Positions 40,015 through 41,613 of a stretch of DNA of 64,000 bases are shown piece by piece. Under the pieces are notes generated by a model that ran no database searches, was not told where the DNA came from, and saw only the letters and a program-made list of their open reading frames with translations. The stretch is from an uncultured bacterium (lineage in GTDB: Bacteria > Bacillota_I > Bacilli_A > RF39 > UBA660): assembly GCA_949292245.1 (NCBI GenBank), contig CASEYV010000003.1, forward strand, positions 1 through 64,000. Reading direction: 5' to 3'. The stretch's first letter is position 1, and each line of letters starts with the position of its first letter. The translations under genes and the position numbers were made by a program.

Positions 40015-40860
40015 TTATTTATTACAACTATCTATATATTCTTTTACTAAAAAAATTGTTTCAGCAAAATTTTCATAATTTACATTAAACCATTTTATAT
40101 CCATTTTATTATTAAACCAAGTATATTGTCTTTTCGCATAATGAATTAATTCTTTTGCTTCTTCTAAACTTATTTCTTGCTTTAAATATTTTATTACTTC
40201 TTTATATCCTATTGCTCTACTTAAAATTTTAGAATCTTTATTATCTTTGTATATTTTTTTTACTTCATCTATTAGTCCATCATCAAACATTTTATCTACT
40301 CTTTTATTTATTACTTCATATAACTTTTCTCTATTTGTAGTAAGACCTATAAATATAACATTCTTATATAATAATATAGGTTTTACTAAATCTATGTTTT
40401 TCTTGTTTAAAAAACGAATTATTCTAACACGATTATTTTTATCTATCTTGCTATTTTTATCTTTTTTTAATACTAATTCATATAATTCTTCATTGCTATA
40501 TTCATCATATGTTAAATTATTTTCATCTTCATAAAAACGATAATCCATTAATGCTGCACTAATATATAAACCCGTTCCTCCACAAAAAATTATGTTTTTA
40601 TCTAAATTACTATCTAATATCTTTCTTGCATCTTTTTGATAATCACATACACTATATTCTTCATTTATATCTTTTATATCTAATAAATAATGCTTTATTC
40701 CCTCTTTTTCATCTTCTGTAATTTTAGCACTACCTATATCAAGTCCTTTATATATTTGAACGGCATCAGAATTAATTATCGATGCATTGTAATATTTGGC
40801 AAGTTCTATACTTAATTTTGTTTTACCAACTCCAGTTGGTCCTACAATTACTATAATCAT
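40015..40860 (-). CDS. miaA: tRNA dimethylallyltransferase
   Basis: 281 residues. It adds the dimethylallyl group to A37 of tRNAs that read U-starting codons. The P-loop GPTGVGKTKLS is at the N terminus, then NSDAVQIYKGLDIGSAK (catalytic Asp), FCGGTGLYI, and AIGYKEV with YAKRQYTWF in the swinging domain. The ATG at 40860 with AAAGGTGG upstream is preferred. The sequence directly upstream contains the RNA/peptide module at 40882-41178, whose minus-strand transcript could read into miaA. Confidence 0.97.
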   Translation of the reverse strand: MIIVIVGPTGVGKTKLSIELAKYYNASIINSDAVQIYKGLDIGSAKITEDEKEGIKHYLLDIKDINEEYSVCDYQKDARKILDSNLDKNIIFCGGTGLYISAALMDYRFYEDENNLTYDEYSNEELYELVLKKDKNSKIDKNNRVRIIRFLNKKNIDLVKPILLYKNVIFIGLTTNREKLYEVINKRVDKMFDDGLIDEVKKIYKDNKDSKILSRAIGYKEVIKYLKQEISLEEAKELIHYAKRQYTWFNNKMDIKWFNVNYENFAETIFLVKEYIDSCNK

Positions 40861-40881
40861 TAAACCACCTTTAAAAAACAA

Positions 40882-40910
40882 TTGTAATATTCAAAAATTT
40901 TTGGTATATT
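40882..40910 (+). promoter_or_regulatory. Plus-strand promoter of the small RNA
   Basis: TTGTAA (40882-40887), 17 bp, TATATT (40905-40910). The expected start is at about 40917-40921, exactly at the left inverted repeat. Confidence 0.6.
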
Positions 40911-40918
40911 ATATATGT

Positions 40919-40986
40919 AAGTGTTACCCATATTGGGTAGCATCGATTTGGTTTCGACGCTACATTATTTGTTGGCGTCTTTTTTT
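40919..40986 (+). ncRNA. Candidate antisense RNA (about 67 nt) with its own terminator
   Basis: It starts just after the promoter and contains a small hairpin (TTACCC-atatt-GGGTA). It ends at a clear terminator, 40956-40962 pairing with 40973-40979 (GACGCTA with TGGCGTC), then seven T (40980-40986). It overlaps the last codons and 3' region of the minus-strand peptide gene, so it would be an antisense regulator of that mRNA. No expression evidence is available here. Confidence 0.5.
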
Positions 40987-41145
40987 GGGCTACCACCATA
41001 AATGATGATAACTAAAATTATAATTACTTGAAGGAAAACATCTTCGTTCATTGCATTACCACACTCCTTAAAAGGATTACTTTTTTTAACCCCCGAAGAA
41101 GGAGAAAGTTGGATAACACGATGCCTTACCAATATAGGTAACAGT
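40921..41145. repeat. Imperfect inverted repeats bounding the RNA/peptide module
   Basis: Left arm 40921-40945 and the complement of right arm 41120-41145 share TGTTACC, ATATTGG and GCATCG blocks in the same order. In a full minus-strand transcript the two ends could pair over about 24 positions, folding the 5' end onto the 3' end. Confidence 0.65.
40965..41051 (-). CDS. 28-residue hydrophobic peptide, candidate type I toxin
   Basis: The peptide reads MNEDVFLQVIIILVIIIYG followed by GSPKKDANK: a single membrane-spanning stretch with a charged C-terminal tail, the build of Fst, Ldr/Ibs and BsrG-type toxins. AAGGAG (41064-41069) lies 12 bp before this ATG but only 7 bp before an overlapping ATG-CAA-TGA mini-ORF (41048-41056). 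The TGA of the mini-ORF overlaps the peptide start (ATGA), suggesting coupled translation. A CUCCUU element at 41099-41104 is perfectly complementary to the Shine-Dalgarno. No homolog could be checked. A leader peptide for miaA is the main alternative. Confidence 0.55.
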   Translation of the reverse strand: MNEDVFLQVIIILVIIIYGGSPKKDANK

Positions 41146-41150
41146 TATTT

Positions 41151-41178
41151 ATTATAATTGTTATTTTTTTATTTGCAA
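41151..41178 (-). promoter_or_regulatory. Minus-strand promoter of the peptide mRNA
   Basis: TTGCAA (41173-41178), 16 bp, TATAAT (41151-41156). The expected start at about 41143 coincides with the right inverted repeat. Confidence 0.6.
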
Positions 41179-41193
41179 TAACTTTGACATTAT

Positions 41194-41222
41194 TCGACAA
41201 TTAATTTAAATAATGCTATAAT
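41194..41222 (+). promoter_or_regulatory. Promoter of the thioesterase-tmcAL operon
   Basis: TCGACA (41194-41199), 17 bp, TATAAT (41217-41222). The predicted start at about 41229 rules out the TTG at 41227 as a start codon. Confidence 0.65.
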
Positions 41223-41241
41223 AACTTTGGATGTGATAAAA

Positions 41242-41613
41242 TTGAAAATTGGTGATGGATTTTTAAAATATAATAATATAGAACTATTAGATGATGATAA
41301 TTGCAAAGTAAAATTAAATATTACTAAAGATTCATTAAATCCTTATGGAATTGTGCATGGTGGTCTTACATTTTCTTTAGGTGATACTGCTATGGGAGTA
41401 ATGTGCCATAAACTTAATAAAAATGTTGTTACCTTGAATGCAAATATTAATTATTTAAAACCTGGTGTTGGTAAATATTTAATTGCTATTCCAAATGTAG
41501 TTAAAATGGGAAAGACTACTTGTGTTTTAAATTGTAATATATATGATGATAATGATAATTTAATTGCTATAATGACTGGCACTTATTATATTGTTGGGGA
41601 TTTATGGAAATAA
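41242..41613 (+). CDS. PaaI-type hotdog thioesterase
   Basis: 123 residues from the chosen TTG. The hotdog core has NPYGIVHGGLTFSLGDTAMG (HGG with the catalytic Asp region), then VVTLNANINYLKPG and TGTYYIVG at the end. Members hydrolyse acyl- or aryl-CoA thioesters in the cytoplasm; the substrate is unknown. No ATG start exists. TTG at 41242 with GGATGTGAT upstream is preferred, and GTG at 41233 is possible. It overlaps tmcAL by 10 bp. Confidence 0.85.
   Translation: MKIGDGFLKYNNIELLDDDNCKVKLNITKDSLNPYGIVHGGLTFSLGDTAMGVMCHKLNKNVVTLNANINYLKPGVGKYLIAIPNVVKMGKTTCVLNCNIYDDNDNLIAIMTGTYYIVGDLWK

Follow-up and report, generated by a model that had tools for sequence, protein, structure and literature searches.

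A probable multi-copy type I toxin-antitoxin module in the genomes of uncultured Bacilli

In hok/Sok and aapA/IsoA, the two ends of the mRNA are joined by long-range pairing, and these modules occur in many chromosomal copies. We know of no ibs/Sib locus with a convergent 3′ overlap and a tail-encoding terminator. The ibs/Sib peptides of E. coli are very small and hydrophobic, and the antisense RNA works via target recognition domains (PMC8309996). In Bacillus subtilis, the bsrG/SR4, txpA/RatA, and yonT/SR6 systems have a convergent antitoxin that overlaps the 3′ end of the toxin gene (PMC8309996, PMC5848175, PMC4147584). The type I modules of C. difficile (CD2517.1-RCd8 and others) combine convergent overlap with a basic-tailed hydrophobic peptide and many copies; the toxins are 34 to 59 residues long, several are prophage located or CRISPR associated, and the antitoxins are cognate specific (PMC7699646, PMC6563280).

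The window, i.e., the whole stretch of 64,000 nucleotides that was analyzed, contains an element of about 320 to 330 bp (~40,882-41,199) between miaA and a 4HBT thioesterase gene. Its nearest counterparts in layout are par/Fst, the Bacillus 3′-overlap systems (txpA/RatA and bsrG/SR4), and the C. difficile modules, and it has an end-closed mRNA like that of hok/Sok. Judging from sequence, we hold with good confidence that this is a type I toxin-antitoxin module carried on the chromosome in multiple copies. Within the class, it seems to form a new branch that has expanded. The general features of the class are found here: a hydrophobic peptide of fewer than 60 residues with one helix and, as is usual, a charged end, and, at the sequence level, an antisense RNA gene that overlaps the toxin mRNA. 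A search of the open literature in the RF39 or Mollicutes context returned no earlier description of the element.

The initial annotation had likened the locus to both par/Fst and hok/Sok, and the resemblance to both stands, whereas membership in the Fst/Ldr family does not. With par of pAD1 and the chromosomal RNA I/RNA II (Fst) loci, the element shares convergent promoters, an mRNA of about 230 nt plus a small RNA, a small membrane peptide with a charged tail, and an mRNA whose 5′ end is predicted to pair internally, as is the Shine-Dalgarno sequence in some copies. Unlike in par, the overlap reaches the toxin codons (PMC4147584, PMC7472228). Fst/Ldr membership was rejected on toxin signature, repeat orientation, and the shared terminator. 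None of 50 peptides has the conserved Trp, which FstpAD1 itself lacks (PMC7472228), and the P/D/S/TxxxG(C) motif occurs anywhere in the sequence in 8 of 50 and is absent from the window's helix. In place of the direct repeats DRa/DRb there is a long inverted repeat (24 nt, 83%), the direct repeats amounting to just one of 10 nt, and none of the 52 copies has, on the toxin strand, the U-run that a shared bidirectional terminator would place behind the mRNA 3′ end. The txpA/RatA-bsrG/SR4 group, in which RNase III degrades the duplex, shares the 3′-end overlap of convergent genes; in contrast to those systems and yonT/SR6, here the antitoxin terminator encodes the toxin tail and a 5′-3′ helix closes the mRNA. 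A terminator-encoded tail also sets the element apart from the C. difficile modules, for which the sections of the reports cited above mention none. The pairing of mRNA ends is shared with hok/Sok (50 of 52 copies, with covariation), but the antitoxin covers the 3′ end and not the leader or start region as in hok/Sok and aapA/IsoA, to whose toxins the element peptides show no detectable similarity. Nor did eight peptides searched against Pfam match any named toxin family, the txpA/RatA-bsrG/SR4 group included, in a test limited by their very short length. In Rfam, Pfam, NCBIfam, and PADLOC, no RNA or toxin family scored above the cutoffs.

Anatomy and spread of the element

Every anatomical part listed in the initial annotation was located in the window sequence. 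The interval it gave, 40882-41178, was too narrow, however, since the element extends to a conserved box pair that ends at 41199. The features are as follows.

40015-40863, − strand: miaA (Pfam IPPT match)
40882-40910, + strand: antitoxin promoter, TTGTAA-17-TATATT
40919-40986, + strand: predicted antitoxin RNA of about 67 nt (5′ hairpin, linker, terminator hairpin, U-tract)
40921-40943, + strand: antitoxin 5′ hairpin; the mRNA closing helix takes its 3′ arm from the complement of the 5′ half of this hairpin
40944-40955, + strand: hypervariable linker, complementary to the loop of the mRNA 3′ hairpin (40937-40963, − strand); candidate recognition loop
40956-40986, + strand: antitoxin terminator, GACGC...GCGTC plus T7; its complement encodes toxin KKDANK and the stop
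40965-41051, − strand: toxin-like peptide of 28 residues, MNEDVFLQVIIILVIIIYGGSPKKDANK; pN/pS about 0.34 in its own subfamily
41048-41056, − strand: two-codon ORF AUG CAA UGA, overlapping the peptide start
41064-41069, − strand: Shine-Dalgarno sequence AAGGAG, paired in the predicted fold
41099-41104, − strand: anti-Shine-Dalgarno sequence CUCCUU in the 5′ untranslated region (UTR), from the predicted fold
41129-41143, − strand: 5′ arm of the mRNA closing helix (3′ arm, 40922-40936)
41151-41178, − strand: toxin promoter, TTGCAA-16-TATAAT
41183-41199, − strand: direct-repeat box TGTCGAA-TAA-TGTCAAA, upstream of the toxin promoter
41230-41613, + strand: 4HBT thioesterase gene (domain match)

A DNA search identified the window segment as one of many dispersed copies. 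About 60 copies from about 15 genomes were extracted and aligned, of which 52 were counted as distinct, and the order promoter-RNA-peptide-RNA-promoter aligns over more than 60 copies. The source genome has six, namely C3 (the window), C56, and two in tandem on each of C29 and C72; tandem copies are frequent. Of 30 genomes in the genus, 24 gave matches to a covariance model of the antitoxin RNA (R1), the number of copies per genome reaching 12. A few genomes of other genera in the family (G145, G187, and G170) also carry the element in the same layout with different peptides, e.g., MNKDFCFLVIIIMLILVILRLI and MNKESLHLCILVLLVIIIILFVIILRLI. Under stricter filters, 296 genomes sampled across the class gave matches in the genus alone. 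The conserved promoter pattern occurs in 53 named stretches, all of them from genomes of uncultured Bacilli assembled from metagenomes, and viral contigs gave 0 matches to the exact form of this strict pattern.

The two inward promoters proposed initially are present and are kept in all 52 distinct copies. In DNA this rich in AT, promoter matches by themselves do not exceed chance (29 found versus 32 expected); it is the relatives that supply the proof. Both start sites sit on the inverted repeat (40913-40936 and 41129-41152), as had been noted. Because the repeats lie at both start sites, the two RNAs start with homologous sequences, and because of this homology the mRNA 3′ end, being complementary to the start of the antitoxin, is predicted to pair with the 5′ end of the same mRNA.

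The two RNAs and the membrane peptide

The + strand RNA is predicted to fold at −24.0 kcal/mol (z of −5.4), with seven U residues in its terminator, in line with the short, strongly terminated RNA that had been proposed. Its structure is kept and covaries: 98% of the cells are paired, with 25 double-change cells versus 7; among 47 copies, pairing of the terminator stem is 100%, and three of its pairs hold 23 double changes. As the annotation had held, the two genes overlap at the 3′ end of the toxin gene, within which the antitoxin terminates; 48 of 50 toxins extend into the antitoxin, most by 5 to 8 codons. Read backwards, the U-tract and stem are AAAAAAAGACGC, which the window's subfamily reads as Lys-Lys-Asp-Ala. 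A different frame is used by other subfamilies, giving Glu-Lys-Arg-Arg-stop, Ala-Lys-Arg-Arg-stop, or Glu-Lys-Arg-His-Arg-Lys-stop, and the LLVIII... subfamily, which stops before the terminator, has no tail. Since the terminator complement is read as tail codons, the basic tail is a product of the antitoxin terminator in most subfamilies. Such a terminator-dictated coding tail is an unusual overlapping constraint of protein and RNA.

The − strand mRNA (41147 to about 40919) is predicted to fold at −71.3 kcal/mol compared to −43.2 for shuffled sequences (z of −6.3); 0 of 200 shuffles folded as well, and its first bases are paired with the last. This closing helix, which had been suggested from the window, forms in 50 of 52 copies with a median of 17 pairs. 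Within it and the 3′ hairpin, 12 of 25 pairs have changed on both sides, and there are 100 double-change cells versus 31 expected from shuffles, counted on an alignment not fitted to the structure. The cells of both structures are 90% paired, compared to 30 to 48% after the partner is slid by 1 to 3 columns. An RNA of about 225 nt had been proposed for this strand; its promoter and peptide ORF are present, but a terminator at the 225-nt 3′ end is not, as no U-run follows it on the toxin strand in any of the 52 copies. Therefore, the mRNA probably either continues past this point, which at this locus would be into miaA, or is shortened by trimming; we infer a 3′ end near 40919.

The leader features vary more. 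Sequestration of the Shine-Dalgarno sequence by a 5′ stem-loop, in the window through CUCCUU as initially proposed, is predicted in the FLQV, FFQLV, and MIRIL subfamilies, the window's own among those for which it is predicted, but over all copies the pairing was not better than in shuffled leaders (P = 0.17), and sequestration as a general feature is not supported. The two-codon ORF, likewise present in the window as described, is kept in FLQV and some other subfamilies only. In the window's subfamily, the modeled pairing of the Shine-Dalgarno sequence and the overlap of the start codon with the two-codon ORF suggest a further brake on translation. Separately, a G-run in the 5′ UTR, often GGGGGUUUUGG (window, about 41090-41094, − strand; L200-L216), is nearly invariant, other genera included. 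No consistent pairing partner was found for it, and it could be a ribosome standby site.

Across copies, the peptides have 22 to 39 residues and a single predicted helix, with a hydrophobic core (median KD of 3.0 over 15 residues) and a median tail charge of +2. The N terminus, core, and tail vary widely among subfamilies, with hydrophobicity retained. Of the 52 distinct copies, 50 have kept the frame open, and a comparable hydrophobic ORF appeared in 0 of 1,000 dinucleotide-shuffled mRNAs. By codon comparison, the peptide is under purifying selection, with pN/pS values ranging from 0.30 to 0.43 across five subfamilies; in CQV the value is higher, at 0.76. Frameshifts occur in a few copies (L056, L063, and L044:467-675). 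In L036:283-520, L037:394-631, and L046, a normal RNA layout surrounds a peptide very unlike the others, MIRILKSYIMIIINIKIKFSINKKDATRK, which recurs in two genomes. The kept frame, the RNA structure that is kept along with it in relatives, and both promoters support the type I-like module first suggested for this locus.

Proposed mode of action, specificity, and alternative readings

By the best reading, the module acts like the par, bsrG, and hok systems. The − strand mRNA would encode a single-helix membrane peptide, which in most subfamilies carries a short basic tail, and overproduction of this peptide would presumably disturb the membrane. Pairing of the mRNA 5′ and 3′ ends would give a stable, poorly translated mRNA. 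The convergent + strand RNA, presumably transcribed from its own promoter, would end within the toxin gene and, because it ends there, would be perfectly complementary, as an antisense RNA, to the final toxin codons and the mRNA 3′ end. First contact would be made with the variable loop of the mRNA 3′ hairpin, and zipping along the mRNA 3′ end would then open the 5′-3′ helix, leaving a duplex that RNase III would probably cut. The antisense RNA very probably silences the membrane-peptide gene.

The candidate contact site is the linker of about 8 to 20 bases between the antitoxin 5′ hairpin and terminator. In 13 pairs of same-genome paralogues with toxin genes at least 90% identical, it differs at 42% of positions, where random sequence would differ at 48% and unrelated flanking DNA differs at 39%. 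The differences in the same pairs were 5% (14/260) for synonymous codons, 6% for the flanking stem arms, and 18 to 24% for the promoter spacers. An example is L036 and L037, in which the toxin genes are all but identical and the linkers are unlike. Within genomes, linker dissimilarity was not significant against label shuffling (2 similar pairs versus 1.9 expected). The divergence fits selection for separate recognition, a proposal already made for par loci and their variable direct repeats (PMC7472228); it could also stem from recombination at the loop. We tentatively suggest, while rating it somewhat below an even chance, a lineage-specific expanding toxin-antitoxin family in which a terminator-overprinted tail (lysine codons from the U-tract, in two frames) and diversifying selection on the contact loop make the copies independent, each defending its own place in the genome. 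The paralogues amount to a natural experiment, with near-identical toxins and antitoxins that differ most in a loop of 10 to 15 bases, so that the cognate specificity of antisense antitoxins can be probed directly. The same set bears on how duplicated addiction modules escape mutual cancelling, and it adds uncultured small-genome Bacilli, for which the literature search turned up no previous report, to the hosts of type I systems, here in dozens of natural variants.

Among other readings, the most serious, although an unlikely one, is a nontoxic small membrane protein that acts in regulation, has its amount controlled by a cis-antisense RNA, and has multiplied in copy number. Purifying selection and the antisense anatomy agree with it as well, and there is a weak, below-cutoff similarity to MgtU, a small transporter-protecting protein, which probably reflects hydrophobic composition. 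However, the sequence varies by subfamily while hydrophobicity is kept, and the copies are often in tandem with diverged linkers; this pattern is closer to that of a toxin with a generic membrane target than to that of the partner of one protein. A structural dispersed repeat of the MITE or REP type, without gene function and with the inverted ends serving as transposition signals, would account for the dispersal, the size of about 330 bp, the inverted repeats near the ends, and the empty sites in relatives. We consider it very improbable, as the promoters, frame, terminator, and helix covariation are all kept, none of which a parasitic repeat needs, and the inverted repeats do not mark the element edges but correspond to the 5′ ends of the RNAs, internal to the promoters. 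The least probable reading is the alternative in the initial annotation, a leader peptide or attenuator controlling miaA. The peptide mRNA of the window does point at miaA with no terminator in between, but this reading fails because in G002, G003, G007, and G028 the miaA gene pair is intact and close together without the element, and because the other copies are dispersed elsewhere, with downstream genes in the same orientation at 19 copies and the opposite at 17. A type I module thus remains the preferred reading.

The upstream direct-repeat box

The box upstream of the toxin promoter is found in 36 of 52 copies with a loose pattern; in the window it is TGTCGAA-NNN-TGTCGAA with one mismatch. 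Allowing at most 1 mismatch, this box pair occurs up to 31 times per genome compared to 0 to 1 for a reversed control (G019 and other genomes of the genus; L091-L120 and L217-L236). In the window (41193-41222), one box unit coincides with the −35 sequence of the thioesterase promoter (TTCGACA); this unit is already present at the empty G002 site, so the element may have landed beside a preexisting box. The layout is like that of a CtsR operator. CtsR as the reader of the box was rejected, as it was found in none of the 30 genomes of the genus that were searched. Stress-linked transcription of the toxin is a lead and not a result.

The box pair also precedes genes that resemble dnaA, hsp20, a cold-shock protein, a metal-pumping ATPase, and miaB (names assigned by eye from the translations) and additionally lies at some apparent gene ends. 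At L115 (G009:C114 near 3044), the box pair and a promoter are followed by a sequence starting AACTGTTACCCG and later by CGGGTAACA, and the peptide is absent; this is possibly a decayed or different element. In the leaders of the miaB-like genes (L096, L104, L105, L234, and L235), a GAAAGCG...CGCTTTC element stands behind the same box pair and is perhaps another regulatory RNA.
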